Source: Chitinophagaceae bacterium C216
GTDB taxonomy: Bacteria; Bacteroidota; Bacteroidia; Chitinophagales; Chitinophagaceae
Assembly (NCBI GenBank): GCA_028485475.2
Contig: CP144143.1
Location: forward strand, 682,001 to 746,000
Direction: 5' to 3'
Length of the DNA: 64,000 bases
The translations under genes and the position numbers were made by a program. Positions 6,366-42,928 of the stretch are shown here, piece by piece; within the stretch, counting starts at the first letter, position 1; each line of letters starts with the position of its first letter. The notes beneath the pieces are model-generated. The model was not told the DNA's origin, did not search any database, and saw nothing but the letters and a program-made list of their open reading frames with translations.

Positions 6366-6994
6366 TCTGCGTTGTTTTGTGCTGCTTTTCTTTTCCACTC
6401 CTGCAATCCACCGAGGGCGATAAGCAGTAATATAAAATAATAAACACTGGTAAATACTAATCCCTTTACGAAATACAAAGGCATTCCGCAGATATTGGTA
6501 ATAATCCACCAATACCAGCTTTCTACCTTCTTTTTAGCCATTAACCACATTCCTGTAAATGCGCTTGCCGAAGCTAAGGCATCTGCCCAAGGAATGGCTC
6601 CGGGCGCAAACTCTTTTTTCAGAAATACCAACGCCCCGTAAATACCGCAATAGAAGAACGCAAAGAAGAGCAGTTCTTTAATCCACTCTTTGCGAGTAGA
6701 AAACTTTATAGCGAGTACTGGCTTTTGAGCGGCATCTTTTCTTGTCCACAAGTACCATCCATATATATTCATGATGGTGTAATAAAAGTTTACCGATGCT
6801 TCACCGAGCAGGTGGTATTTGAAACTGAGCCAGATGTAAATACTGGTGTTGAGCAGACCGGTAGGATATACCCATATATTTTCTTTTTTACTATACCAAA
6901 CGCTGGTAATGCCTGCAATTACTGCAATATACTCAGGTAAAGTAGTTGCTCTGAGTCCGTCAATAAATTGGTTGAAGATTTCCTGGACAGGCAA
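6362..6994 (-). CDS. pnuC: PnuC-type nicotinamide riboside transporter
   Basis: 210 residues with seven or so membrane segments; the family takes up nicotinamide riboside by facilitated diffusion, trapped by phosphorylation inside. Family features seen: an N-terminal EYIAVIAGITSVWYSKKENIWVYP-like region split over residues 20-45, YTIMNIYGWYLW in the middle, WWIITNICGMPLYFVKGL near the C-terminus. The start codon is TTG (6992-6994): there is no in-frame ATG before the conserved region. A TATATTTG promoter element lies 16 bases upstream. It forms an operon with the NadR-like kinase. Confidence 0.9.
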   Translation of the reverse strand: MPVQEIFNQFIDGLRATTLPEYIAVIAGITSVWYSKKENIWVYPTGLLNTSIYIWLSFKYHLLGEASVNFYYTIMNIYGWYLWTRKDAAQKPVLAIKFSTRKEWIKELLFFAFFYCGIYGALVFLKKEFAPGAIPWADALASASAFTGMWLMAKKKVESWYWWIITNICGMPLYFVKGLVFTSVYYFILLLIALGGLQEWKRKAAQNNAE

Positions 6995-7010
6995 AAGGCT
7001 TAATTTTTCT

Positions 7011-7042
7011 CAAATATAACAAACAAAAAAGCCGTACAACAA
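7011..7042 (-). promoter_or_regulatory. Bacteroidota-type promoter for pnuC
   Basis: On the minus strand a TATATTTG element (7011-7018) matches the Bacteroidota -7 consensus TAnnTTTG exactly. TTG triplets at 7037-7039 and 7040-7042 lie 18 and 21 bases upstream, suitable as the -33 element. The -33 triplets fall inside the hairpin that ends the upstream nfu-like gene. Confidence 0.6.
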
Positions 7043-7054
7043 TGTGCACGACTT
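7024..7054 (-). terminator. Rho-independent terminator of the Nfu-like gene
   Basis: Read on the minus strand, a nine-pair stem (AGTCGTGCA with TGTACGGCT, two G-U pairs) with a six-base loop is followed by TTTTTTG. It lies 26 bases past the stop of the Nfu-like gene. Confidence 0.75.
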
Positions 7055-7079
7055 CAAAATATTTTTATATAGAAATATA

Positions 7080-7676
7080 TTATTCAGCTTCTGCCACTAC
7101 TTCCTTCACTTCAGGAATCATACGCTTCATCATTCCTTCGATACCGGCTTTTAGCGTGATCATAGAAGAAGGACAACCGCTACAGCTACCCTGCATCATC
7201 AAATTTACCACGCCATCTTTATAGCTTTTGAACTGAATAGCACCGCCATCCATTTCTACAGCAGGTTTTACATAGTTTTCCAGCAGTTCTTTAATACGTT
7301 TTACCACATCATCGTCGTCGGCTAAAACCTCATTGCTACCCTCTTTCTTCACTTCTACAATTTCATCTTCGTTAATAACGGGCTTTCCTTCTTCGAGATA
7401 GTCTTTTAAGAATTGACGAATAGAGGGAGTAACATCCATCCACTCCGCATCGGGAGTTTTTGTAAGAGTAACAAAATTGCTGGCAATAAATACAGCCTTG
7501 ATAAAAGGAAAACCGAATAATTCAGTGGCCAGCGGAGAAGGTTTTGCACTTTCCGCATCTGGGAAATCAATGCTTTTTCCGGGATACAAAAGTTTGTTGG
7601 CGACAAACTTCATTGTTTCCGGGTTGGGTGTCATTTCCGTATAGATACTGATTACTGGGTTTCCTGTCTTTATCAT
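7080..7676 (-). CDS. NifU-like Fe-S cluster scaffold/carrier protein (Nfu)
   Basis: 198 residues: an N-terminal Nfu_N-type domain (about 1-95, beginning with TEMTPNPETMKF) and a C-terminal NifU-like domain (about 120-190) with the cluster-binding Cys165-x2-Cys168 in GSCSGCPSS. Proteins of this layout hold a [4Fe-4S] cluster between two monomers and pass it to target enzymes in the cytoplasm. It fits a genome with many Fe-S proteins such as ActB, MqnC and the PaoAB-like subunits. An exact TATCTTTG promoter element (7696-7703, minus strand) lies 19 bases ahead of the ATG. Confidence 0.92.
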   Translation of the reverse strand: MIKTGNPVISIYTEMTPNPETMKFVANKLLYPGKSIDFPDAESAKPSPLATELFGFPFIKAVFIASNFVTLTKTPDAEWMDVTPSIRQFLKDYLEEGKPVINEDEIVEVKKEGSNEVLADDDDVVKRIKELLENYVKPAVEMDGGAIQFKSYKDGVVNLMMQGSCSGCPSSMITLKAGIEGMMKRMIPEVKEVVAEAE

Positions 7677-9660: not shown

Positions 9661-9880
9661 AAGAAAACTTAAATAAAAACTCAAAAGTTGAGAAGATGCA
9701 ATAGCAATGCATCCTCTTACCGAACTGAGCGTATTGTTTTGAATGTTTATGGATTTGTTGAAAATAATTATACAGAAATAAAATATTACCATTAAACTGT
9801 TCTATTATCCTTTGTCGGCTGTTTCGTAACTGAAGCAGCCTTGTTTTTTGTACACCATGGGCAACAATTATCTTTGGGGC
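9661..9880 (+). promoter_or_regulatory. Structured leader or small-RNA region between two terminators
   Basis: Between the OmpA terminator and the ArsC-like gene lies a hairpin at 9691-9714 (GATGCA/TGCATC core) and a second rho-independent-type hairpin at 9817-9840 (nine pairs including one G-U, loop GTAACT) followed by TTGTTTTTT (9841-9849). The second one ends only 31 bases before the ArsC-like ATG. A promoter-like TATCCTTTG (9807-9815, spacer one base long) sits directly before it. It could be an attenuator or the end of a small RNA; no known family is recognised. Confidence 0.45.
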
Positions 9881-10240
9881 ATGAAGAAGATTTATTATCT
9901 GTCTACCTGCAGTACTTGCGCAGCAATAATGAAAGATGCTAATATCAATGAAGCAACAGGCTTTGAGTTACAGGATATCCGTACACAAAAAATAAGCCCT
10001 GCACAACTCGAGCATATGCAAAAGCTGGCAGGCTCTTATGAAAAACTTTTCAGCCGCCGTTCTTTGAAATATAAAGAGCTAGGCTTAAAAGATAAAAAGC
10101 TTACCGAAGAAGATTACAAAAACTATATTCTTCAATACGATACTTTTTTGAAGCGTCCTGTTGTAATTCTGGATGACCGTATTTTTATTGGTAGCGAAAA
10201 GAAAACCATACAGGCACTTAAAGAAGCCCTTAGTGTATAA
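9881..10240 (+). CDS. ArsC/Spx-family thioredoxin-fold protein
   Basis: 119 residues from the ATG at 9881; an earlier frame start at 9848 adds 11 residues lacking family similarity. The thioredoxin-like ArsC fold is shown by MKKIYYLSTCSTC with Cys10 and Cys13 (a CxxC like Spx rather than a lone ArsC cysteine), FSRRSLKYKELGL in the middle and RPVVILDDRIFIG near the end, where the arginine aligns with a substrate-binding arginine of ArsC. It may be a glutathione- or thioredoxin-linked reductase, or a YffB/Spx-like protein. Arsenate reduction is not established by the sequence. Its 3' end overlaps the 3' end of the convergent MFS gene by 11 bases. Confidence 0.8.
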   Translation: MKKIYYLSTCSTCAAIMKDANINEATGFELQDIRTQKISPAQLEHMQKLAGSYEKLFSRRSLKYKELGLKDKKLTEEDYKNYILQYDTFLKRPVVILDDRIFIGSEKKTIQALKEALSV

Positions 10241-11501
10241 CAGGTGTCTCTGAGGGCTCCTCGAAATGTTTGGCCAACTCTGGATTTTCGCGATGTTCTT
10301 TTTGCAATACGGATCGACATATTGTTACGCAAATCAGCATGAAAACAGCTCCCAGTAAGAATGGAGAACCGGCAAAATGAATAAGAGAATCTTCCTGAGT
10401 TGTATAGTTAAATAATCCGGTCATAATTAACGGACCGAATATAGAGGTAAGACTCATGATGCTGGTTAGGCTTCCTTGCAGTAGGCCTTGTTCGTTAGCC
10501 GGCACATGCTTGGTAATGATAGATTGTAGGGCTGGTCCGGCTATTCCTCCTAAACAGTAAGGAATTAAAAATGCATACATCATCCAGCTCTTCGTAGCAA
10601 GTGCAAAAAGAATGAGGCCTAATACATAAAGAAGCATGCCTGTATACACACTTTTTTCATCACCCAGTCTGGGATTGACGTACCGGATCAAACCTCCTTG
10701 TACTACACCGGCTAATACACCCACCAAGGCAAGTGAAATGCCCACCTGTTTTTCGGTCCAATTAAATGCGTACATAGTAAAATAGCTCCAGTTACTTTGT
10801 ACGGCATGAGAAGCTAGAAACATGAAGCCGAAAGCCACAAATAGACCGCTAATGGTTTTATACTTTCTTAAAAACTTGAGAGAACCTATCGGATTGGCCT
10901 TTTTCCAATCAAAGGGACTACGGTTTTCAGGTTTCAGAGATTCGGGTAACACAAAGAAACCGTACAGAAAGTTTACAAAACAAAGAATTGCGGCTGCATA
11001 AAACGGAGCTCTTATGCCCCATCCGGCGAGCAATCCACCCAATGCCGGACCCAGTACAAATCCCAGTCCAAAAGCTGCACCAATAAGACCGAAGTTTTTT
11101 GCACGGTTTTCATTAGTGCTGATATCAGCGATATAAGCACTTGCTGCAGTAAAGCTAGCTCCTGTAATGCCCGCCAGTACACGACCTACAAAAAGTAATG
11201 CATAGTTATGGGCAAGTGCCAGAATAATGTAGTCTATACAAAATCCCAGTAGTGATAGCAAAATAATAGGCCTTCTTCCGAAGCGGTCGCTGAGATTGCC
11301 CATCAACGGTGCAAATAAAAACTGCATTGCAGCAAACACAGATACGAGATATCCACCCCAGCGGCTTGTTTCGTTAAGAGGGATATGTTTGAGTTCTACC
11401 AATAACTGTGGCATAACAGGAATAATCAATCCCCAGCCAATAACATCAATTGTAAGGGTGACAAAAATAAATCCTATAGCGGCATTACTAGAGCTTTTCA
11501 T
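10230..11501 (-). CDS. MFS transporter, Tet(A)-like drug efflux group
   Basis: 423 residues, twelve hydrophobic segments, the usual size for 12-TM major facilitator proteins. The loop 2-3 signature GNLSDRFGRRPI is intact, and the segment GAAFGLGFVLGPALGG matches the antiporter motif C found in drug-proton antiporters such as TetA. The family pumps tetracycline or other drugs out in exchange for protons across the inner membrane. No TetR-type repressor lies next to it, so a general multidrug or metabolite role is equally likely. Confidence 0.85.
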   Translation of the reverse strand: MKSSSNAAIGFIFVTLTIDVIGWGLIIPVMPQLLVELKHIPLNETSRWGGYLVSVFAAMQFLFAPLMGNLSDRFGRRPIILLSLLGFCIDYIILALAHNYALLFVGRVLAGITGASFTAASAYIADISTNENRAKNFGLIGAAFGLGFVLGPALGGLLAGWGIRAPFYAAAILCFVNFLYGFFVLPESLKPENRSPFDWKKANPIGSLKFLRKYKTISGLFVAFGFMFLASHAVQSNWSYFTMYAFNWTEKQVGISLALVGVLAGVVQGGLIRYVNPRLGDEKSVYTGMLLYVLGLILFALATKSWMMYAFLIPYCLGGIAGPALQSIITKHVPANEQGLLQGSLTSIMSLTSIFGPLIMTGLFNYTTQEDSLIHFAGSPFLLGAVFMLICVTICRSVLQKEHRENPELAKHFEEPSETPVIH

Positions 11502-16366: not shown

Positions 16367-19300
16367 TTATTTGGGAGAAGTTATTTTTCGATAGGTATAA
16401 TAAAACAAAATAGGGATGACAGTAAACGATAATACTAAACTTATCAGCATCCCTCCAACAATCATTATTGCTAAGGGTTTTTGAATTTCAGATCCCATAC
16501 TGTTTGACATAGCTGCAGGTAGTAATCCCATTGAGCCCATTAGAGCTATCATTAATACAGGTCGAATTTTAGACTGAACGGCTTTAGTAATAGCATCTAA
16601 TAAGGAATTTTTCTTAAGGTATTCTTTCATAACAGTGATCAAAATAAGCGCGTTAATGGTATTTACTCCAAACAATATAATTAGGCCGATACCTGCAGAT
16701 ATACCAAAAATGGTTTGTGTGATCCAAATAGACAGAAAACCTCCTATAAAAGCAAAAGGCAATGTTATTGACGATAGAATCGTGTCGCGCAAGTTTCCAA
16801 AGTTGCTATATAATAAGATTAATATCAATATCAATGATATTGGAATAACTGTCATTAATTGTTTGGTGGCGCGTTCTTTACTTTCAAATTCTCCGGCCCA
16901 TTCCATGTGTTGATTTTTAGGTAATACCATTCTTTTTTCAACTTTAGCCTTGGCTTCAGCAATCGTACTACCTAAATCTCGTCCTTGAATGCTAAATCCT
17001 ACAGCACTATAACGACTATTTCCTTCGCGATAAATAAAGGCAGGTCCTGTTTTATAACCAATAGAAGCGATTTCCTTTAATGGAATACTATTACCATTGG
17101 AGGTACGAATGAGAATATTGCCAATTTTTTCTGGCGAATTGCGATAGTCTTCTTGAAAGCGTAACACGATATCAAAATGCCGATCCCCCTCATAAAATTT
17201 ATTCGCAGCTTGACCACCAATAGTCATAGCGATAACTGCTTGCACATCGGACGTCTGAATACCATATTTTGCCATTTTAGAATCATGTAGTTGAATGCGC
17301 AATTCTGGCAGGCCTATGTTTTTATAAACGTTTACATCAGTAATACCATTTACAGTACGTATGATGTTTGCTACTTTATGCGCCTGGTTTTCGAGTTCTT
17401 CCAGATCGTTTCCAAATATTTTGACTACCAAAGAGCTTTTTACACCCGCTACATATTCTTCAACATTATCTTGAATAGGTTGGCTGAAGCCGAAATTGAT
17501 TCCCGGGTATTGAGATAATAGTTCTCTTAGTTCTTGTACAATTTCGGCTTTGGTAATTTTACGCTTCCATGATTTTTCGTTTTTTAATTGGACATGAAAC
17601 TCTACATTAAAAAAGCCTGTAGGATCAGTTCCATCGTTAGGTCGTCCGGTTTGGGTTAGAATGAAATCAATTTCTTCACAATTGGCAAGCATTAGCTCTT
17701 TCATTTCTTTAGTGAGCTGAGTTGATGTAGTTAGGCTAATACTATTAGGTAAAGTCGCTCTAATATAGATTGCACCTTCATTAAGTTGCGGCAAGAATTC
17801 GGTACCATAATTTAAAAAACGTACAATACATATAAGAAGCAATATACAAAAAGCTCCAAGAGTTAGTCGTTTATATCGAAAAGAAAGTAGGTGGAGTGAA
17901 TAAATAAGCTGATGAGAGAACCGAGTTATTATGTTTTCTTTTTCTTCTATATTTTGATTGAACAAATATTTACACATTGCGGGCACGTATGTTAAGCTTA
18001 ATAATAAAGAACCTAACAAGGCATAACTCAAAGTATAAGCTAAGGGAATGAACATTTTGCCTTCTACTTTTTGAAAGGAGAAAATAGGTAATAAAGCAAC
18101 GATTAAAATCAATAAGGCAAAGGATATGTATGAGGCTACGGAGCTCGCTTGTTTGCGAATGATACCTGACTTGCTCATTTTGGCAAACCGCTCAGCACCT
18201 AGTGCTCGCTGCATGGCGGCAAGCGAAACAAAAATTGTTTCTACCATTACTAAAGTTCCTTCTAATAGCAGTCCAAAATCTAAAGCTCCCATGGAAATCA
18301 AATTGGCAGGCATGCCCTGCCACTTCAGCATAATAATGGCAAACAAAAAAGATAAAGGAATTACAGAAGCAACAATAAAAGTGGATTTCCAATTATTAAG
18401 GAAGATACCAACAATTAACGCTACTAGTAAAATGCCTTCGATTAAGTTGCGCGAAACTGTTTTGACGGTGCTATATACCAAGATGGTACGGTCGATGACG
18501 GGAACGATTTTAACACCATCGGGTAATAGCTGTTCATTTAGTAAATTGACTTTCTCCTTTAGATGTTTGATTACTTCAGATGCGTTTTCCCCTCGCAGCA
18601 TAACGACAATGCCTTCTACTACATCGTCCATTTCGTTAAACCCTGCTTGTCCCAGACGAGGTTTACTTGACATTACAACATCGGCGACATTTTTGATCAG
18701 AATGGGAGTAGAGCCATTTAGTTTTATAGTAATATTTCTAATGTCTTCTAATTTATCGAGAAGTCCTACACCTCTAACCACATATGCTTGTTCTCCCTGC
18801 TGAATAATATCTCCACCTACGTTGATATTGGATTTAGATACTGCTTCATAAACATCTAAAGGAGAAAGATCAAAGTTTTTTAATTCGGTAGGATTGATAC
18901 GTATTTCATAAATCTTTTCTTCTCCACCAAAACTAATAACATCTGCTACGCCCGGTACACTCAACAGCTCACTTTCAATTACCCAGTTTTGAAGAGTTGT
19001 TGTTTCTTTTAGAGGCAGACTACTTTTAATAATATATCGAAATATTTCGCCCGTAGCTCCCGAAGGCGGTTCTATGCTAAAAGACGCACCATCCGGTAGT
19101 TCTACTTTTCCAATTTTGCTCGCAACATTTTGTTGGGCGTAAAAATCATCAACTGTATCTGCAAACTGTACTGTCACCACGGATAAACCAAACAGAGATA
19201 CCGAGCGAATTTGTTTTTTTTGGGGAATGGTGTTCATTTCCTTGGTGACTGGAAGTGTGACCAATTTTTCAACTTCCTCAGCACTTCGACCAGGCCATTG

Positions 19301-19462
19301 TGTAATGATTCTTACACGTGTATTGGTCACGTCAGGGAATGCCTCAATGGTAGTATTCTTTAAGGAATAAATACCATAGCATAATAAGGCAAAAGTTAAG
19401 AACAAGATTAATGAGGCTCGCCTCAGTGAAAAAGTGACTATATGTTGTACCAGTTTTTTCAT
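16367..19462 (-). CDS. Heavy-metal efflux RND pump, CusA/CzcA family
   Basis: 1031 residues, the normal size of the heavy-metal branch of RND transporters, inner-membrane proton-driven pumps that reach into the periplasm. The N-terminal SLKNTTIEAFPDVTNTRV and the four-segment block around residues 330-500 fit the CzcA/CusA group. The TM4 proton-relay motif is Asp385, Glu391, Glu398 with the same spacing as CzcA Asp402, Asp408, Glu415, so the central aspartate is a glutamate here. It overlaps the adaptor gene by four bases (19459-19462). Whether it moves Cu/Ag or Co/Zn/Cd is not settled by the sequence. Confidence 0.92.
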   Translation of the reverse strand: MKKLVQHIVTFSLRRASLILFLTFALLCYGIYSLKNTTIEAFPDVTNTRVRIITQWPGRSAEEVEKLVTLPVTKEMNTIPQKKQIRSVSLFGLSVVTVQFADTVDDFYAQQNVASKIGKVELPDGASFSIEPPSGATGEIFRYIIKSSLPLKETTTLQNWVIESELLSVPGVADVISFGGEEKIYEIRINPTELKNFDLSPLDVYEAVSKSNINVGGDIIQQGEQAYVVRGVGLLDKLEDIRNITIKLNGSTPILIKNVADVVMSSKPRLGQAGFNEMDDVVEGIVVMLRGENASEVIKHLKEKVNLLNEQLLPDGVKIVPVIDRTILVYSTVKTVSRNLIEGILLVALIVGIFLNNWKSTFIVASVIPLSFLFAIIMLKWQGMPANLISMGALDFGLLLEGTLVMVETIFVSLAAMQRALGAERFAKMSKSGIIRKQASSVASYISFALLILIVALLPIFSFQKVEGKMFIPLAYTLSYALLGSLLLSLTYVPAMCKYLFNQNIEEKENIITRFSHQLIYSLHLLSFRYKRLTLGAFCILLLICIVRFLNYGTEFLPQLNEGAIYIRATLPNSISLTTSTQLTKEMKELMLANCEEIDFILTQTGRPNDGTDPTGFFNVEFHVQLKNEKSWKRKITKAEIVQELRELLSQYPGINFGFSQPIQDNVEEYVAGVKSSLVVKIFGNDLEELENQAHKVANIIRTVNGITDVNVYKNIGLPELRIQLHDSKMAKYGIQTSDVQAVIAMTIGGQAANKFYEGDRHFDIVLRFQEDYRNSPEKIGNILIRTSNGNSIPLKEIASIGYKTGPAFIYREGNSRYSAVGFSIQGRDLGSTIAEAKAKVEKRMVLPKNQHMEWAGEFESKERATKQLMTVIPISLILILILLYSNFGNLRDTILSSITLPFAFIGGFLSIWITQTIFGISAGIGLIILFGVNTINALILITVMKEYLKKNSLLDAITKAVQSKIRPVLMIALMGSMGLLPAAMSNSMGSEIQKPLAIMIVGGMLISLVLSFTVIPILFYYTYRKITSPK

Positions 19463-20559
19463 GCCTTATTTTTTAGCTCCTCAAACAACAACAAAACGTT
19501 CGTTACTACAACTCTTTCGTCGGGATCCAACACCTCCTTTACATAATAATATTCATCATTGCTGGCTATTTTATGGACATGGCGAACTTTTAAATCACAA
19601 TCCGATTTATGGGTGATTATATATTCCCTATCGTTATAAAAGATAACAGCACTTTGAGGAATAGCTAAAGCACTGTCTAGAACAGTTCGTTTATTCACGA
19701 TGATATCGGCGCTTAGCCCTGGCATGAGTTGTAGGTTTTTATTGTCAAGAACTACTCGGGCCTTCAAAACATGTTCGTCATCATCAAAAACATTATATAT
19801 TTTATCGATTTTGCCAATGTATATTTCGTCAGGATATGCGACGGTTCTTACTTTCACTGTATCTCCCACTTTAATTTCTCTTAGATTGCTGGCATAAATA
19901 TTTACCATCACCCAGACTTGCTTTAAATTAGAAATCGAAAAAAGAGGTTCGCTTTCAGGTGTAATATTTTGCCCTCGATTAATGGTTTTCTGAATGATGT
20001 ACCCATTTTGAGGAGATATAATATCAAAGTATCCGTCCTTTCTAACTCGATACATGGCCAAGGTTTGTTGTACCTTTTGTAACGAGATTTTTGCCATTTC
20101 GAGTTCGTGCTTTGTTTTCAGTACATCGATTTTTACAGATAAACCATCTCTCAAAAGATCATTAGATAATTGCAGTTCGTTTTTTAGCATTTCGACTTGC
20201 GTTTCGTAGAGTCTTTTTTGCTGAAATAGCTCTTGAGCTTCTTCCGAATGTAGGGTTGCCAACACTTGACCTTTATGAACGTAATCTCCTAGTTCGAAGT
20301 TTACAGACTCAACAGTTCCTTTTAGTAATGATCGATATATCAGCAAGTCGTTTTCATTATATTCGATTTTGCCCGACATAGTTATTTGTTCATGTACAGG
20401 CTGAATGGATACAGGGGCAATTGCTGTTGTTTTCTTTAGTTCTTCAGTTAAGCAATAAACAGTAGTGATAGAATCATCTATTTTAGATACTTTTCCTTTA
20501 CAAGAGAAGCATATAATCATCCCGCAGATGATTCCTGTTATGATATACCATTTGTTCAT
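19459..20559 (-). CDS. RND efflux periplasmic adaptor (CusB/CzcB-like), lipoprotein
   Basis: 366 residues. The signal ends in a lipobox (MIICFSCKGK), so it is likely anchored to the inner membrane by lipid. It has a membrane-fusion-protein layout: barrel-sandwich halves around GTVESVNFELGDYVHKGQVLATL and DIISPQNGYIIQKTINRGQ, a helical hairpin between them (about 105-165), then beta-barrel and proximal domains. It bridges the pump to the TolC-like channel. It lacks the Met-rich N-terminal motif typical of E. coli CusB. Spacing is one base from the TolC gene and a four-base overlap with the pump gene. Confidence 0.9.
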   Translation of the reverse strand: MNKWYIITGIICGMIICFSCKGKVSKIDDSITTVYCLTEELKKTTAIAPVSIQPVHEQITMSGKIEYNENDLLIYRSLLKGTVESVNFELGDYVHKGQVLATLHSEEAQELFQQKRLYETQVEMLKNELQLSNDLLRDGLSVKIDVLKTKHELEMAKISLQKVQQTLAMYRVRKDGYFDIISPQNGYIIQKTINRGQNITPESEPLFSISNLKQVWVMVNIYASNLREIKVGDTVKVRTVAYPDEIYIGKIDKIYNVFDDDEHVLKARVVLDNKNLQLMPGLSADIIVNKRTVLDSALAIPQSAVIFYNDREYIITHKSDCDLKVRHVHKIASNDEYYYVKEVLDPDERVVVTNVLLLFEELKNKA

Positions 20560-20560
20560 A

Positions 20561-21820
20561 TTAAAAATGTTTTCCTACGAGAAGTTGTAACTGTTCAATC
20601 AATTTTAAGTATGTTAATGCGGCATCCCAATAAGCAATAGCTGTTGATTGATGAGATTCTATGTAATCGATATATTGTGTCAATGTAATTTGTTTTTGTT
20701 GCAAGCGTTGCCAGAACTGTGCTAGTATACTTTGATAATCGTCTTTAAGAAAGTTATTGGAGTATTGTGATAGATATTGTTCCCATTTTTTTATTTGTGT
20801 AATGCAATTATTAATTTGCTGTTCCAGTTGCGTTACAATGCTCTGGTATTTATTTTCCTCAATAGCTTTTTGGTGTTGGGCCGCTAATATGTTGCCTTTG
20901 TTGCGATGGAAAATGGGTAGATCAATCGAAATGCCGAATCCCACAAAATCTTTCATGATATTTCCTCCACGGTCATAATTTGCTAGAAGTGTTACACTGG
21001 GTACAGCCATTGCTTTTTCCAGTGCAATGTTAGCATCAGCAAGTCGTTGCATTTGTGTTTGATGTTTTAAGACGTGATTATTTTGCAGTGCCAATTCCAA
21101 TACGTTGGAGGGGATACGTGAGGTATAGTTAAGTGATAAAGTATCAAAAACAATGTTGCTTTCTGACAAAGTGTTTAATCCGGTTAAATATTTTAATTCA
21201 TTAAGCAGTTCTTTTTTTTCCTCTTCCGCTGAAAATGCTTCTTTTTGTAACTGTGAGAAAGTATTTTGGGCACGCATTAATTCTGGCAACAGAACATTTC
21301 GATTGTTATACTGTCTTTGATATTTTTCTACCAGACGGCTAATTTCATTTAATAAACTTGCATTTACTTTTTCTTTTTTCGTTAGGATGTAGTATGTGTA
21401 ATAAGCAACTCTAAGTTCGTACTGTAATTGAGCTGTTAAAGCATCTTTTTGTATGTGTTGTGTTTGTAGTGCTTGGGTATTTACCTGAATGCGCTTTTTG
21501 CGTTTAGCTGCGGTTTCTATTTTTTGTTCTAGCTCAATACCAAATTGTTGATATTTCCCATAGTTACCAAATAGTCTACGTTGAGATTCTATATCGAAAG
21601 TTTTCCAAAAGTTTACCTCTTGTAAGGATAAAGTTGGATTCTCATGGGCCTTGGCTTGTTGTAATTCTGCAGCGGCTTTTTCAATGTTTAAAGATTGTTC
21701 GCGTATTTGTAAGTTATGCTCGGTTAAAGCGTTTTGTAGATCACGTAGTGAATATTCTTGAGCCCATAGTACCTTGTAGCATAAAATAATATTAATCACC
21801 AAAAGAGCGAAACGCGCCAT
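20561..21820 (-). CDS. TolC-family outer-membrane channel (CusC/CzcC-like)
   Basis: 419 residues with a signal peptide ending near WAQEYS, then two repeats of the outer-membrane efflux protein domain dominated by long Gln/Glu/Lys-rich helices. Each helical repeat starts with a segment like SLRDLQNALTEHN or IPSNVLELALQNNH. It forms the exit duct of the tripartite metal pump. It is the third gene of the five-gene operon, 87 bases after the sensor kinase. Confidence 0.9.
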   Translation of the reverse strand: MARFALLVINIILCYKVLWAQEYSLRDLQNALTEHNLQIREQSLNIEKAAAELQQAKAHENPTLSLQEVNFWKTFDIESQRRLFGNYGKYQQFGIELEQKIETAAKRKKRIQVNTQALQTQHIQKDALTAQLQYELRVAYYTYYILTKKEKVNASLLNEISRLVEKYQRQYNNRNVLLPELMRAQNTFSQLQKEAFSAEEEKKELLNELKYLTGLNTLSESNIVFDTLSLNYTSRIPSNVLELALQNNHVLKHQTQMQRLADANIALEKAMAVPSVTLLANYDRGGNIMKDFVGFGISIDLPIFHRNKGNILAAQHQKAIEENKYQSIVTQLEQQINNCITQIKKWEQYLSQYSNNFLKDDYQSILAQFWQRLQQKQITLTQYIDYIESHQSTAIAYWDAALTYLKLIEQLQLLVGKHF

Positions 21821-21907
21821 AGACAGTTTTTTGCAAAACTATCTATGGTAGATTAAAGGAATTTTGGAGCTGCATTAAAAATATATTGAAAGCGGATTAG
21901 AATTTAG

Positions 21908-23245
21908 TTAGAAAATTAATGTAACCCTAGTACCTCCTTCTGGCTCGTTGTGAATAGCCATCCCGATATGATGTAGTGAGAATATAATATTAGCTAATGA
22001 GAGGCCAATTCCTTTGCCTCTATGATTTTTGGCATTTGCTGCTCTATAAAAATTGCGTGTGATATTTGGCAAATCTTTTTCAGGTATGCCTATTCCGCGA
22101 TCGATGATATAAATATGTAATTTTTGGTCAACTATCAAAAGTTTAAATTGAATAGGTTTATTGTGAGAGTATTTAATAGCGTTTTCAACAATATTTGTTA
22201 AGGCAATTTCTAAAAGTTTAGCATTTCCTTTCAATTCGAGCATCGATTGATCCTCGACAGCCATATTCACTTCAATCTTGGCTTGATGATGTATAACTGC
22301 GTTTTCAATAACCTTCCATATAATTTCGTCTATGCGAGTTGTAGTAAATTCAAAAGAAGGGTTTGCACCTGATAAAAGAAGCATATTGTTTAATGCATCT
22401 TCGAGATCGTGTACGTATTGTTTTGATTTTTGTAATACAATTTGATATTCCTGTGCTGATCGTGCTTTTTGTCCAGTTACTTCTAGTATTCCTAGTAAAG
22501 CGGATATAGGTGTTTTTAATTCATGAGAAACATAGTCGATAAAATTCTTTTGTACGGAAAAAGTTTCAGATATACGGTTGACTAGGTAGTTGTAGTTTTC
22601 TACTAGGTCTTGTAACTCCTGATATGTTTTTTCAACTTTAATGGGTTGATGAAAATTTTGTGCATCACGATTTTTAATCTGCTTAGTGATTTTAATAATG
22701 GGGGCATAAGCCCATTTACTCAAATATCTGGCGATGAAAAAAATAATAAGGATGCTAATAGCCGAAGCCACCCACAAAATATGGAAAAGACTTTGTAGCT
22801 GCGTTTTAAACTCTGTTTTAGGCTCACGAGCAATAACTATGAAATTACCCTGATTGTCTTGATAATATATTCCGTGATAAAAAAAATCTTTTGTTGCAAA
22901 ATGTTCACTATTATTCTCTCTGATCTGATCAATAAACTGTCGTTGAATGTCGGATGTGGGAGACATATCTCCATATACCTGATGGTATAGACTATCAAAG
23001 ATGGCAATGTTTTTACGTGATATTTTTTTTAAAAGCTGACTTTTGATGTTTTCATGATCTCCAATAGATAATTCGTCTTTTTCCAGATAGTATAAAGCTG
23101 CCAATAAGGTTTTGCTTTCCAATCCCTGCATTTCTTTACGTTCCATTACGGCTGCAAAAGAAAAATAAATAATTGCCGATACCCCGATAATAAGGATGCT
23201 GAACAAGATAACTGCATATAAGGAAAGCCGTTGTTTTAATTTCAT
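21908..23245 (-). CDS. Sensor histidine kinase of the metal-efflux operon
   Basis: 445 residues: TM1 (about 8-30), a periplasmic sensor of roughly 125 residues, TM2 (about 155-172), HAMP, HisKA with phospho-acceptor His241 in YVSHELKTP, and a HATPase domain with NIVENAIKYS, DRGIGIP and GKGIGLSLA motifs. It pairs with the response regulator one base upstream. Given the pump genes downstream it probably senses periplasmic metal, as CusS does (inference). No obvious Cys/Met metal cluster is seen in the periplasmic part; several His residues are. Confidence 0.9.
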   Translation of the reverse strand: MKLKQRLSLYAVILFSILIIGVSAIIYFSFAAVMERKEMQGLESKTLLAALYYLEKDELSIGDHENIKSQLLKKISRKNIAIFDSLYHQVYGDMSPTSDIQRQFIDQIRENNSEHFATKDFFYHGIYYQDNQGNFIVIAREPKTEFKTQLQSLFHILWVASAISILIIFFIARYLSKWAYAPIIKITKQIKNRDAQNFHQPIKVEKTYQELQDLVENYNYLVNRISETFSVQKNFIDYVSHELKTPISALLGILEVTGQKARSAQEYQIVLQKSKQYVHDLEDALNNMLLLSGANPSFEFTTTRIDEIIWKVIENAVIHHQAKIEVNMAVEDQSMLELKGNAKLLEIALTNIVENAIKYSHNKPIQFKLLIVDQKLHIYIIDRGIGIPEKDLPNITRNFYRAANAKNHRGKGIGLSLANIIFSLHHIGMAIHNEPEGGTRVTLIF

Positions 23246-23246
23246 A

Positions 23247-23924
23247 TTATTCTACCTTAAATAGATAGCCTATTCCTTTTACCGTGTGGATAAATTTTTG
23301 CTTAGATTCGAGTTTATTTCTCAGATAAGAAATGTAAACATCTACAACGTTTGAAGGGTTTTCAAAATGAATGCCCCATACTGCATTTAGAATTTGCTGC
23401 CGAGTAACCACTTTGCCGTAATTATCGCATAAATATTTAAGTAATTTGAATTCGCGGGGAGACAAGTCGACTGGGTTTTGATTTAAGTGCACCTTATATT
23501 GGTGAGTGTCGATTTGAATAGGCCCAAAATCTTGTATATGCTTTGAGGTGTCTAATTGATCGTATTGATTTCTTCGTGTGAGTGCTTTTATGCGTGCAAG
23601 CAATTCATCAAAATGAAAAGGTTTGGTCATATAATCATCTGCACCGCTATCTAAGGCGGTGGTTTTGTCTAGCACACTATTCAATGCACTCAGCATAAGA
23701 ATTGGGGTGAAAATTTTCTTATACCGTATAGTTTGTACCAATTGAATACCATCAATACCGGGCAGCATTACGTCTATAATCATTAAATCGAAACTCAGAG
23801 AAAGATATTGCTGAAGGACTTCTTCGCCCGATTTGCATAAAGTAATTACATAACCGACCTCCTCAAGGCCTTTTACTAAAAAATCACTTATCCTTCTGTC
23901 GTCTTCAACAATCAATATTTGCAT
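23247..23924 (-). CDS. OmpR-family response regulator of the metal-efflux operon
   Basis: 225 residues: receiver domain (1-115) with acidic pocket Glu7-Asp8-Asp9, phosphorylated Asp51 (IIDVMLPG) and Lys in MTKPFHF, then an OmpR/PhoB winged helix (about 128-223) with LSPREFKLLKYL and VDVYISYLRNKL. It is the first gene of the leftward operon and likely activates it, in the manner of CusR or CopR. The two genes are separated by a single base. Confidence 0.93.
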   Translation of the reverse strand: MQILIVEDDRRISDFLVKGLEEVGYVITLCKSGEEVLQQYLSLSFDLMIIDVMLPGIDGIQLVQTIRYKKIFTPILMLSALNSVLDKTTALDSGADDYMTKPFHFDELLARIKALTRRNQYDQLDTSKHIQDFGPIQIDTHQYKVHLNQNPVDLSPREFKLLKYLCDNYGKVVTRQQILNAVWGIHFENPSNVVDVYISYLRNKLESKQKFIHTVKGIGYLFKVE

Positions 23925-38668: not shown

Positions 38669-39387
38669 AAAATATTTGTAATTTTATACAGTAAAAGCTT
38701 TGTTATTCTAAGGATAGGTTTGTAAATGCTGGGTTGAGATTTTCGAAACCCGTATCTGTTGTTCACTTTAACCAAACCATTAATGCCTATGGAGTTCGGT
38801 AGTTGCTCATGGGTATAGGTGATGAAGAATATGTTTAGACACTTTATGAAAGCTATTTGATCGGGTTTTTGTGGTACGACCGGAGGTCGTCATCATTCCG
38901 GTGGAATAGCCATTCAATAATTACATTGCTTTCCGGCTATTCTTCCCTATACCCAGGCAATTTTTATCATACATCTAGCACTTAATTGCTATCCTATTTT
39001 AAAGTCCCCTCGTTATTGTGAGTTTACATTTTCGAGAAATCGCCATACCTTAACCAATACATAGCGAAAATCTTTGATGTCTTTGCATGGCTATTACCTT
39101 GTGGTAGTAGGGGAAAGTTGATGTTGAAAGATCCAGTAGAAGTTTTTGTATTTCATTTACCAAAAGCTTTCATATCTCTGTCGTTTTTCGGCAATAGATA
39201 AATTGTATAGTGAAGGTTTTGTCGCTAGTAAAATAAAATTTGGAAAATTAGATAAGAGTAATACAATCAGCTTTTTACTCAACTAGAATTGTAGTTGAAA
39301 TGTATGATAATTTGTTAAATTCGTAGAGAATGATGTTATACAAAGATTTTTCCTATAGTTAAAACTGTAAATAAAAATTTACGTATA
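38669..39387. other. Long non-coding stretch at the left border of an accessory island
   Basis: 719 bases without a convincing gene. It contains three inverted repeats in a row: ACGACC/GGTCGT (38876-38890), ATTCC/GGAAT (38895-38907) and GAATAGCC/GGCTATTC (38904-38911 and 38935-38942). The last 150 bases before the next gene become very A+T-rich. No tRNA, integrase or att-like repeat was recognised. Confidence 0.4.
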
Positions 39388-40956
39388 ATGAACAAAAACA
39401 TTTGGAGTTTATACAAAAATTCAGACAGAGGAAAGAGTGTGATTAAACTATTTACCGTACATGAAGAAGATGATGAGCTGAATTGGGCAGAGCAAGTTTT
39501 TAAAAATTATGTCGAATATTTAGGTGAGCAAGTTGGAGGGTATAATAAAGAAAGGATGCTAAACTCTTGCATTAATAATTTTTGTATCATACTAATGTGT
39601 ATTTGGGCTGATAACTTGCAGCTAAAAGAGAATGAAGGGATCGATGATTATTATGAAAGGTTAATTGATAATATTGAACTTTCAGAAGTAGAGGTAAATG
39701 AGGAAGAAAGACGCCTTTATAAGGAAAAGGATAGAATAATATATCTACATAAGCAAAACTATAAGTCTCTTTGTTCCATTCTTCCAGAGCTTTCTCTGGC
39801 CTTATTTTACTTATATCCAAATGTTTTTTTTCCAATACTTTTTCGAGAACGATTTGATGTGTTCATGAGAATTCTTGATGTATTGGAAATTTCAATGCCA
39901 GAACTTCCCACAAAACCAGATAAAAGAGGAAGATTGTTATTTTATAAAGAGCTGGTGAAAAATATTTATGCTTTTTCAAAGCAGCATGATCTAACAGCAG
40001 AAGAAACATGTGCTTGTATTTATGATTTTGCACTTATGCTATTAGAAGATAATCAAACTAAAGATGAAATGCCCGAGCCAACTAACATTTGGCTAACTGG
40101 TGCTTGTAAAGAAGATTATAAAAATTTCTTGAAAAATCCAATTAAAGATGCAAAAGCCATTTGGACTTGTAATGAGAACACTAAACGGGGCGACATTATT
40201 ATAATGTATGTTCTTTCCCCGTATAGTTGTATTCAATCCATTTGGCGATCAGATATGGACGGAGTTTATACTCCATTCAATTATTATAACAGTAGAACAA
40301 GAGTTACAAGTGGAATTCTGATTTCTCCCATAACACTTAACGAGCTAAAAGCAGACCAATATTTTTCGCAGCTTGGAATTGTAAGGAAAAACTTTCAAGG
40401 AGTAAATGGAGTAAAATTTACGGCCAAAGATTATAAAGAACTTCAACGATTATTATCTGAAAAGGGATTTGATATTTCTCTCTTGCCACAATTGTACAAG
40501 CCCAACTTGGAAATCGAAGGTGATATTAAAAACGAAAAAGATGTGGAAGAAAAACTACTGATTCCACTACTAACGAAATTAGGATATACAGAAGGGGATT
40601 GGACAAGACAATTGTCTCAAAAAGTAGGAAGAAACTTAAAAGCAATTCCCGATTTTGTATTTCTTCCTAAAGGGGAATTATATTTTCAGAACGCTCCTCT
40701 GATTATAGAAGCGAAATTTGATATAAGTTCGAATATTGAAAGAACAAAATCCTATAATCAAGCATTATCTTATGCAAGAATGATGAAGTCTTCAATGTTC
40801 GGAATTTGCGACAAAGAAAGATTAATAATATATAAAGAACGAAAAGGTCTCTTTGACCGTTTTCAACCAGCTTTTGAAAAATATTGGCAAAATATAAATG
40901 ATACAGAAACCTTTAATCAATTAAAATTAATAATAGGAAAAAGTGCAATTCAATAA
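39388..40956 (+). CDS. Putative EVE-like/PD-(D/E)XK nuclease, candidate modification-dependent restriction enzyme
   Basis: 522 residues with three parts. Residues 1-229 are helical with acidic/basic stretches and a core around LYPNVFFPILFRERFD, of no recognised family. Residues 233-365 look like an EVE/PUA-type domain: NIWLTGACKEDYKNFL, then AIWTCNEN, then KRGDIIIMYVLSP and IQSIWRS; EVE domains bind modified bases in DNA. Residues 380-490 resemble the N-terminal nuclease domain of type I restriction R subunits: Glu387-Glu388, Pro421-Asp422 and Glu441-Ala442-Lys443 form a PD-(D/E)XK site. The combination suggests cleavage of DNA carrying foreign base modifications (inference). No methylase, helicase or McrB-like GTPase is nearby, so it would act alone. 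It is A+T-richer than its neighbours. Confidence 0.65.
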   Translation: MNKNIWSLYKNSDRGKSVIKLFTVHEEDDELNWAEQVFKNYVEYLGEQVGGYNKERMLNSCINNFCIILMCIWADNLQLKENEGIDDYYERLIDNIELSEVEVNEEERRLYKEKDRIIYLHKQNYKSLCSILPELSLALFYLYPNVFFPILFRERFDVFMRILDVLEISMPELPTKPDKRGRLLFYKELVKNIYAFSKQHDLTAEETCACIYDFALMLLEDNQTKDEMPEPTNIWLTGACKEDYKNFLKNPIKDAKAIWTCNENTKRGDIIIMYVLSPYSCIQSIWRSDMDGVYTPFNYYNSRTRVTSGILISPITLNELKADQYFSQLGIVRKNFQGVNGVKFTAKDYKELQRLLSEKGFDISLLPQLYKPNLEIEGDIKNEKDVEEKLLIPLLTKLGYTEGDWTRQLSQKVGRNLKAIPDFVFLPKGELYFQNAPLIIEAKFDISSNIERTKSYNQALSYARMMKSSMFGICDKERLIIYKERKGLFDRFQPAFEKYWQNINDTETFNQLKLIIGKSAIQ

Positions 40957-41063
40957 TATACTTGTATCACAAAGCTTGTCATAATAAATATGCTGATATA
41001 TATCTATTTTTCCTCCCTCGTCTTATCAATCTACATTTTCAATAATGAAAGACATAAAAAGAT

Positions 41064-41492
41064 ATGCGAATCTGGTCGGTTCATCCAAAATATTTAGATA
41101 CAAAAGGGCTTGTGGCATTATGGCGGGAAACGATTCTTGCCAAGCACGTTCTTGAAGGCCGAACCAAAGGATACCGAAACCACCCTCAACTTATCAGATT
41201 TAAACAATCTGACCATCCATTAGATAGAATAAACCAATATTTGGCAACCGTATATGAGGAGGCAACGCGTAGAGGGTATACATTTGACAAAGAAAAGATT
41301 GACTGGAATTTTTCATCTTCTTTAATGAAAGTAACCAGCGGGCAATTGCAATATGAAAAAGAGCACTTACTCCGAAAACTTAATGTGCGTGATCCTCAAA
41401 GATCTGATCTCGTAAAAGCAATAAGTAAAATCGACCCCCATCCTATGTTTAAAGTTGTCAAGGGCGGCATAGAAGCGTGGGAAATAATCTAA
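41064..41492 (+). CDS. Pyrimidine dimer DNA glycosylase-like protein (Pyr_excise family)
   Basis: 142 residues. The N-terminus MRIWSVHPKYLDTKGLVAL followed by WRE matches the group annotated as pyrimidine dimer DNA glycosylase/endonuclease V. In T4 endonuclease V the nucleophile is the amine of Thr2 and Glu23 is catalytic; here Glu22 in WRE takes the glutamate position and Met1 the position of Thr2. There is no in-frame upstream start. It lies 107 bases after the EVE-like nuclease gene on the same strand. Dimer excision is possible, but substrates of this short branch are not established. Confidence 0.75.
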   Translation: MRIWSVHPKYLDTKGLVALWRETILAKHVLEGRTKGYRNHPQLIRFKQSDHPLDRINQYLATVYEEATRRGYTFDKEKIDWNFSSSLMKVTSGQLQYEKEHLLRKLNVRDPQRSDLVKAISKIDPHPMFKVVKGGIEAWEII

Positions 41493-41734
41493 CAATATAA
41501 TTACGCACACCGTGTATGCTTGTGGGCAATATGGGTTTTGGCAAATGAAATAATCGGTATCATCTATTTTTTATCTCACTATCCAACCCTCTCATTTAAG
41601 CAAATTTTATATCCGGCTTTTCCCTGTTTTCGATAAAAATTAGGATTCGGCAGACGTTCTTTCGGAAGAAATACCCCTCCCGCTTTGGCCATGCCGTACC
41701 CCTGGCATGTAATAACAATAAAATAAGAAGCCGA

Positions 41735-42283
41735 ATGAACGACACTCGAATCACGTTAAAATATATTCTGATCGGAATTATTGTTGTAATCTTTACCTGG
41801 ACATTTCATGAGTTTGCACACTGGCTTACAAGCGAGCTTTTGGGATATGACACAGCGATGTATCTAAATGCGAGCTCGACCTTAGGCGATAATAAGCCGA
41901 ACGACTTACATAGAGTCATTATCTCTGCTACAGGTCCCGCTGTTACGCTGCTTCAGGGATGGATTGTTTTCCTATTGCTCAAAAACAAAAAATGGGATAA
42001 GTATGGATACTTGTTGCTTTTCACAGCATGCTACATGCGTTTCCTAGCAGGACTGATGAATGGTATCAACCCTAATGATGAGGGGCGTATCAGCGCTTAT
42101 CTGGGATGGGGCACCTTCACATTGCCGATAATTGTTTGTGTGCTTTTATTTTTAATGGTTCGGAGAATATCGAAGCAATATCATCTAAGCTGGAAATTCC
42201 AGCTCGCGAACACCTTAATTGTCATGTTTGTCAGCTCAGCCTTAATTCTCGCTGACCAGTTTTTTAAAATCAGATTATTGTAA
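41735..42283 (+). CDS. Small membrane protein with HExxH zinc motif (M50-like)
   Basis: 182 residues with about five hydrophobic segments. The first one contains His25-Glu26-x2-His29 (FHEFAHW), the zinc-protease motif, placed within or at the edge of the membrane as in site-2 proteases. ISATGPAVTLLQG (about 68-80) resembles the AGPxxN-type motif of M50, and INPNDEGRIS (about 110) supplies a possible third ligand Asp. The family cannot be assigned with certainty; it may be a reduced intramembrane protease. It is the last gene of the island. Confidence 0.55.
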   Translation: MNDTRITLKYILIGIIVVIFTWTFHEFAHWLTSELLGYDTAMYLNASSTLGDNKPNDLHRVIISATGPAVTLLQGWIVFLLLKNKKWDKYGYLLLFTACYMRFLAGLMNGINPNDEGRISAYLGWGTFTLPIIVCVLLFLMVRRISKQYHLSWKFQLANTLIVMFVSSALILADQFFKIRLL

Positions 42284-42928
42284 GGCCTTCTACATTTGCT
42301 AACAGTTTGCTTTCATTTACCCATGAAGCCTCTCGAATGGCTTAAGCCATCAAGTATTTCATTGCGTTTTTTCAGAAACTAGAGGGAATAGTCGTCCTTG
42401 CCAATCCTGGATCGGCTAGGTGTATGTATTATGAATCACTGCAGCTCATGTGAGTAAACTCTCTTCGAAAGTTATTGATGAAACCTTAAAAGATAGTATT
42501 GATGTTGCACGCTTTCGTAACATTTGCTGCAACAATTGTATGGGTGATTGCACCCAGCTGGATATCCAAAAAGGAAACTTCTCCATTGAGAGCAATGCTT
42601 ATTGAGCTGTTTTCTGGAGGCTGCTGAGTTGGGTAGCGCGTATCTGTCGTTTCAAAGCAGCAACATTCGCGACTAGGATGCATTGCGAATAATCATTACT
42701 ACTTTCACTTACCCACCGAATTATTGGAGATCTAAGACTTATTTCAAAACGTTAATCTTAAAATCATTGAGAACATTTTACTGAGAATAGTAATAGAAGT
42801 TCTTTTTTATTATTTGGGGATTTTTTTAAACGCGTTGGTGGATAACGATCATAAATAAAAGGTCTCTATTGTCGCAATCTTGTGCTAGGCAGCAATTAAT
42901 AATGTACCTATACAATCTGTTTCATTTC
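42284..42928. other. Non-coding stretch at the right border of the island
   Basis: 645 bases with no gene of normal size. It holds a 14-base perfect palindrome ATGGCTTAAGCCAT (42337-42350) and a short Cys-rich open frame (42450-42605, listed separately). Otherwise A+T-rich with no recognised element. Confidence 0.4.
42450..42605 (+). pseudogene. Short Cys-cluster open frame, possible gene remnant
   Basis: A 51-codon frame with a GTG start. It reads like protein in its first 40 residues and contains four cysteines at 26, 27, 30 and 34 (CCNNCMGDC), a spacing seen in small zinc-binding sites. It stops at 42603-42605 without a longer continuation. It may be a decayed gene end or chance; no family is recognised. 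Confidence 0.25.

Follow-up and report, generated by a model that had tools for sequence, protein, structure and literature searches.

A candidate modification-dependent nuclease gene joining an acidic N-terminal lobe, an EVE domain and a PD-(D/E)XK domain

Proteins that pair an EVE domain with a PD-(D/E)XK nuclease were predicted to be type IV restriction endonucleases by Bell, Wolf and Koonin in 2020, in the part of their paper devoted to this class (PMC7641849). In the EVE-HNH enzyme VcaM4I, the EVE domain flips 5mC or 5hmC into a pocket, as described in part of the report on that enzyme (PMC7897488). Passages of the same two papers also place domains of the EVE/PUA superfamily in RNA-binding and regulatory proteins, which is a counter-point to a DNA restriction role (PMC7641849, PMC7897488). 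BREX loci with PD-(D/E)XK auxiliary effectors appear among the systems listed in a 2026 survey (PMC12839542). The DNA analysed here is a stretch of 64,000 nt (the window), in which an original prediction had described a stand-alone EVE-like plus PD-(D/E)XK protein as a candidate defence enzyme directed at modified DNA. Both that description and its interpretation are supported, with corrections concerning one catalytic-site residue and the claim that the gene stands alone.

The nuclease gene and the insert that carries it

The coordinates of the gene, its domains and the insert around it are collected in Table 1. The open reading frame has a GC content of 31.7%, compared with 40.3% for the whole window, and a third-position GC of 24.3%; both values are the lowest among the 40 ORFs of 200 aa or more that were called mechanically across the 64,000 nt, and the A+T-rich composition taken earlier as a sign of transfer is thus confirmed. 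Over residues 1-515 the protein matches PHROG 37753, a family of unknown function (E=4.8e-103). Its sole Pfam match is HSDR_N, below threshold, and searches of NCBIfam and of PDB sequences with the 522-aa protein gave no match. Promoter and terminator scans at the locus yielded nothing above the level of shuffled sequences.

Table 1. Coordinates in the window of the nuclease gene, its domains and the surrounding insert.
Feature	Coordinates	Strand	Extent and basis
Lineage-specific insert, 4.26 kb	38669..42928		nuclease gene and two small genes
Nuclease gene	39388..40956	+	522 aa, ATG start; N-terminal lobe, EVE and PD-(D/E)XK nuclease
N-terminal acidic helical lobe	39388..40065	+	residues 1-226; AlphaFold2, charge, profile search
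EVE/PUA domain	40066..40491	+	residues 227-368; family profile and Foldseek on AlphaFold2 model
PD-(D/E)XK nuclease, HSDR_N type	40501..40953	+	residues 372-522; E387, D422, E441-x-K443, Q458-x3-Y462
Pyrimidine-dimer DNA glycosylase gene	41064..41492	+	Pfam Pyr_excise E=2.6e-25; same insert
Small membrane protein gene	41735-42283	+	weak Peptidase_M50B E=0.0016, below cut-off

Comparison with 16 other same-genus genomes, 12 of which do not share this synteny and are uninformative, showed that the gene arrived by insertion. All four genomes that carry the two flanking genes as neighbours (G001, G003, G004 and G012) lack the insert, and the small membrane protein gene is missing at each of these empty sites. 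The flanking genes are separated by 557 bp in G001, 76 bp in G003 (where the flanking genes themselves are fragmented) and 28 bp in G004, and in G012 the gap holds one 269-aa ORF with no Pfam match. At the ends of the insert, convincing direct or inverted repeats were not found. Absence from the four informative genomes, low GC and a patchy family together uphold the proposed horizontal transfer. A second low-GC stretch of the window (16367-23924, minus strand) appears by eye to encode an RND-type efflux pump, an adaptor, an outer-membrane protein and a two-component regulator, and was possibly acquired too.

A type IV-like enzyme had been proposed in part from the lack of a cognate methylase and of an McrBC GTPase nearby, and reading of the window's ORFs bore this out. 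No cognate methyltransferase was seen by eye beside the gene among the ORFs at 33-47 kb of the window. The 522-aa protein has no Pfam match to the AAA+ GTPase McrB or to McrC, and neither was seen by eye in an adjoining gene. Zorya genes were likewise not seen by eye beside the gene; elsewhere in the same genome, a search with one ZorD model found a single SNF2 helicase, generic-looking by eye, about 115 kb away.

Domains of the 522-residue protein

An AlphaFold2 model of the whole protein, built from 12 alignment rows, had a mean pLDDT of 83.6 and divides it as had been claimed, with a helical lobe at about 1-226, an EVE/PUA domain at about 227-368 and a nuclease at about 372-522. Foldseek comparison of the full model with the PDB gave 2gbs (E=1.7e-4), 2hd9 (E=4.9e-4) and 1zce (E=4.3e-3) at ranks 1 to 3 and 2g2x (E=1.4e-2) at rank 5, all four of which are EVE-domain proteins. 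TM-scores to these targets were 0.56-0.65, with E<0.001 for 2gbs and 2hd9 only, and ASCH and YTH domains were interspersed among and below the top matches, including a YTH RNA reader at ranks 12-13. The check proposed earlier, of a PUA fold by structure prediction and structure matching, thus shows the fold to be present with EVE-type proteins as its closest PDB structures.

Sequence comparison led to the same domain. The middle domain of the family profile, and no other part of it, matched an ORF in each of the genomes G566 and G484; both ORFs are McrB-like, carry an EVE domain by Pfam (E=6.8e-9 and 2.3e-8) and adjoin McrC genes, and the profile falls exactly on their EVE domains (27.7 and 22.0 bits). 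Eight residues (W235, G268, D269, Y274, P278, Q337, G338 and Y349) are invariant across 14 rows of the family and both EVE rows from McrB. The Pfam EVE model itself (PF01878, gathering score 23.0) has no match in the 522-aa protein and gives 14.3 bits for the homologue L009. A PDB sequence search with the EVE alignment gave E-values of 0.1 for 2ar1, also an EVE-type protein, and 0.33 for 2gbs; the VcaM4I chain was not matched in this search, and the positions equivalent to the VcaM4I pocket residues could not be assigned in the present domain. Profile and fold together give the protein a putative reader domain for modified bases, as expected of a type IV enzyme, and the EVE/PUA middle originally placed at residues 233-365 is well founded.

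The C-terminal domain contains a PD-(D/E)XK core with a QxxxY motif, which is a feature of HsdR proteins. E387, D422, E441, K443, Q458, S461 and Y462 are invariant in the 16 full-length homologues, each of which therefore has a nuclease domain with intact catalytic residues, as a type IV enzyme requires. Among the residues picked out by the original prediction, E387, D422, E441 and K443 are in this invariant set, but Glu388 is not. Pfam HSDR_N was matched at E<=0.1 in 6 of 12 members (best E 8.3e-5), none of which reached the curated cut-off; against the gathering score of 25.1 for PF04313, the best member (L026) scored 23.0 bits and the window's protein 17.2 bits. The top Foldseek match in BFVD is named 'Type I restriction enzyme R protein, N-terminal domain' (E=3.5e-4), and a PDB sequence search with the nuclease alignment gave no match.

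The N-terminal half, as predicted, is modelled mainly as helices, with short strands only between residues 102 and 120; modelled alone, the lobe reached a pLDDT of 88.2 and a pTM of 0.87. It had also been said to resemble nothing recognisable, and indeed Foldseek comparison of the lobe model with the PDB gave no match (best E 0.87), while a PDB sequence search with the wider family alignment gave only E-values of 0.16 and 0.51 for N-terminal relatives. A lobe-only profile matched 8 of 246 genomes, and every one of these matches was to a member of the nuclease family itself, including one broken copy. In all 16 homologues the net charge of the lobe is negative (-3.6 to -19.9, mean about -15; pI 4.4 to 5.2), compared with means of -1.2 for the EVE domain and +0.9 for the nuclease, and it is the least conserved part of the protein, with a mean top-residue fraction of 0.44 against 0.62 and 0.58, respectively. 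Since the lobe is acidic, poorly conserved and always present, an inhibitor, sensor or partner-binding part would fit better than a DNA-binding one.

Two candidate relationships of the lobe were rejected. A 677-aa protein in genome G999 matched at profile positions 22-142 (E=2.3e-4) and was not counted because the matched stretch looks coiled-coil by eye; its C-terminal stretch appears PD-(D/E)XK-like by eye. Residues 90-150 of the lobe match the PADLOC ZorC model (E=0.0023), which was taken as chance since the homologues L002, L008 and L009 gave no PADLOC match up to E=1.

Homologues and their neighbourhoods

The main alignment consists of 16 full-length open copies, the window's included. 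Left out of the counts were three broken copies (L004, L005 and L096 of genome G1405), the fragments L088 and G1347 (at a contig end), matches to McrB only, and the G999 and L038 matches. A genome-contig scan found five relatives, two of them broken, and a plasmid search found two copies, both in Deinococcus. The first two viral-contig scans found no copy, a scan with the wider alignment found three, one of them the fragment L088, and a fourth scan met one of these three again; phage records gave no match with four queries (the window's protein, L008, L087 and L015, the last being the gene of L029).

With the window's protein alone as query, its own genome was the only one of 59 near relatives to carry the gene, and with the PHROG model it was the only one of 395 across the phylum; that model also matched one of 14 control genomes, Deinobacterium chartae. 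A class-wide search matched 2 of 345 genomes (the window's own and G999, uncounted), and an order-wide search 2 of 296, one uncounted; L038, from the order-wide search, is a separate PD-(D/E)XK-like protein and was not treated as a member. In the family of Epilithonimonas, 12 of 296 genomes were matched, 10 of which carry the nuclease family (one copy broken) and 2 of which were reached through the middle domain only; within the genus itself, 2 of 23 genomes have a copy. The family of L001 gave 3 of 200 (one intact copy, one broken, one fragment). These counts show the gene to be rare and patchy; among Bacteroidota and Deinococcota it occurs in defence loci, on plasmids and on prophage contigs.

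The tree groups the window's copy with those of a Prevotellaceae MAG, a Sphingobacteriales MAG and Weeksellaceae in one mixed clade (support 100/100), whose inner forks are weakly supported. The gene is under purifying selection in close relatives, with dN/dS of 0.10-0.12 in four pairs that are not all independent because they were drawn from five Weeksellaceae copies; in two more distant pairs dS is saturated. Such constraint, together with full-length homologues in two phyla, marks the frame as more than a chance ORF. Broken copies show that it decays as well as spreads: in Vaginella massiliensis the copy (L005, 8001-9508) is split, with parts missing and a transposase-like ORF inside (DDE_Tnp_1_6, E=5.2e-10), and a genome of the L001 family (L096, 7835-9420) holds one in two frames. 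The L004 copy is broken into several frames.

The survey of homologue neighbours that had been suggested for a defence link found 7 of the 15 other full-length copies within 2.5 kb of defence, toxin-antitoxin or phage genes, a proportion that has no matched control rate for random genes beside it. Homologues are therefore not confined to housekeeping contexts, yet the remaining 8 of 15 lie amid genes that look housekeeping by eye. Three of these eight (L029, L030 and L032) share one site and were probably inherited together. At L028, the flank on one side extends for 1.2 kb only.

In Epilithonimonas caeni (L002), the gene starts 3 nt after zorD as the fifth gene of a ZorB-ZorA-ZorC-ZorD operon (E-values 8.4e-82, 1.7e-31, 3.6e-19 and 0, in that order). 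Downstream of this homologue, L002 also encodes a 212-aa PD-(D/E)XK-like protein (9682-10320; PDDEXK_9, E=0.0034, below cut-off). On a plasmid of Deinococcus QL22 (L009), the gene is inside a BREX locus, on the opposite strand, with pglX on one side and pglZ-brxL on the other; this locus has brxB and brxC, GTPase and DarT-like genes and, after brxL, an McrBC pair; brxA was not identified there. Seen as L040 (579-4273), the same locus shows an McrC gene (Pfam McrBC, E=1.6e-89) and an AAA_5 ATPase gene beside brxL, and at 9265-11014 of L009 two GTPase genes adjoin the homologue, the first of them LeoA-like (PADLOC, E=7.8e-9). The description of the gene as stand-alone thus holds in the window and fails for these two copies, of which one closes a Zorya operon and the other lies within a BREX locus.

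Other copies have smaller neighbours. The copy on D. proteolyticus pDEIPR02 (L008) has a type IIG R-M gene at a distance of 2.4 kb, and the methylases in the surroundings of L008 and L009 are recognised by models of type IIG and PglX. The gene of L001 is 196 bp from a RhuM gene (PADLOC candidate family PDC-S05), and that of L026 is 591 bp from a PemK toxin gene. On two viral contigs the gene is separated from a phage-integrase gene by 1056 bp (one small ORF) and 888 bp (two small ORFs); terminase and portal genes are also present on one of these contigs, and the other has an S24-type repressor gene 38 bp upstream. On viral contig L086, an ORF at 6733-7134 that looks ASCH-like by eye and has no Pfam match lies beside PAPS-reductase-like and ParB-like ORFs.

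Interpretation and comparison with known systems

The protein is best explained as a single-chain modification-dependent (type IV-like) restriction nuclease encoded by a mobile anti-phage gene, a reading to which we give a probability of roughly two in three. Cleavage of modified DNA is inferred from the domain families. The EVE domain would flip and hold a modified base in incoming DNA, most likely a C5-modified cytosine, and the PD-(D/E)XK domain would then cut that DNA, probably as a dimer. The acidic lobe would restrain the enzyme or sense a partner or trigger, and would not be a DNA-binding part; in Zorya and BREX loci, the nuclease would cover phages whose modified DNA evades the main system. 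Taken together, three constant domains, catalytic residues in every full-length copy and a repeated defence, toxin-antitoxin or phage neighbourhood argue for this reading. Against it count the missing Pfam EVE match in the window's protein, an HSDR_N score below the curated cut-off and the eight copies in housekeeping-looking surroundings.

The Zorya and BREX placements, and a lobe that is acidic, variable and never absent, could also be read as signs of a trigger-activated DNA nuclease effector, whose lobe would detect infection or be recruited by a separate system such as ZorAB, and whose EVE domain would merely anchor the protein to DNA without modification deciding the target. ZorAB does recruit Zorya effector nucleases, according to part of a report on that system (PMC11890865), but of the 15 other full-length copies only one is in a Zorya and one in a BREX locus, for most copies a partner gene is not evident, and the sole other copy in the genus Epilithonimonas (L030, found in one of 22 other genomes) has no adjoining Zorya genes by eye; such an effector is unlikely. 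A nuclease directed at RNA or tRNA, in which the EVE domain would recognise a modified base in RNA and the nuclease domain would cut nucleic acid during infection, is quite improbable: PUA-superfamily domains are often RNA-binding and the known roles of EVE domains mostly concern RNA, as stated in parts of two papers (PMC7641849, PMC7897488), and a YTH reader is among the structural matches, but the EVE relatives found by sequence sit in McrB-like DNA-restriction proteins, and the nuclease belongs to the HSDR_N type, which cuts DNA. Most improbable is a repair or other housekeeping nuclease acting on damaged rather than modified bases with the pyrimidine-dimer glycosylase as partner. The Pyr_excise gene begins 107 bp downstream of the nuclease gene, and the housekeeping-looking neighbourhoods would suit such a role; however, tblastn of the DNA surrounding other copies found no Pyr_excise homologue (one 28-residue chance match, E 0.11), and presence in 1 of 59 near-relative genomes does not fit a housekeeping function.

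A bolder extension of the restriction-nuclease reading is tentative and unlikely. The lobe might be a regulatory fold of a new type, acting as a DNA mimic or as a sensor of a trigger. It would hold the modification-reading nuclease away from the DNA of the host, and would allow a single mobile gene to join several unrelated defence machines; in Epilithonimonas caeni the protein would serve Zorya as a fifth component and extend it to phages with modified DNA. Should the lobe prove to inhibit the enzyme or to act as a sensor, this would reveal how a nuclease without a partner spares the host cell, and how Zorya or BREX can be supplemented with a type IV enzyme against phages hidden by modified bases. 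More generally, a compact and testable modification-dependent nuclease is added by prediction.

Among known families, PHROG 37753, matched over the full length (E=4.8e-103) and recorded without function, gains a probable one. The nuclease domain is of the same type as the N-terminal nuclease of HsdR, with E...D...ExK and QxxxY, but it has no helicase motor, and HsdM and HsdS were not seen adjoining. The EVE domain is detectably related by sequence to those of type IV EVE-McrB/McrC systems, whereas this nuclease has no AAA+ GTPase and no McrC and carries its cutter in the same chain. Like VcaM4I, which cuts modified DNA, it joins an EVE reader and a nuclease in one polypeptide; VcaM4I has its EVE domain at the N-terminus (1-147) and an HNH domain at 179-309, in the description given in part of that report, whereas the present protein has a central EVE domain, a PD-(D/E)XK nuclease and an additional lobe about 200 residues long (PMC7897488). 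The core pairing of EVE reader and PD-(D/E)XK in one chain is that of the putative type IV enzymes of Bell and colleagues, among whose sequences this family may itself be, and because that class was predicted in 2020 the kind is already known by prediction (PMC7641849). Section 9 of the same paper, on this class, makes no mention of an acidic N-terminal lobe or of a Zorya or BREX partner, and a search of the literature turned up no paper that combines Zorya with an EVE domain. What is new is the constant third domain, without a PDB match and acidic in 16 of 16 copies, and the pairing with larger defence systems (Zorya, BREX) and prophages.
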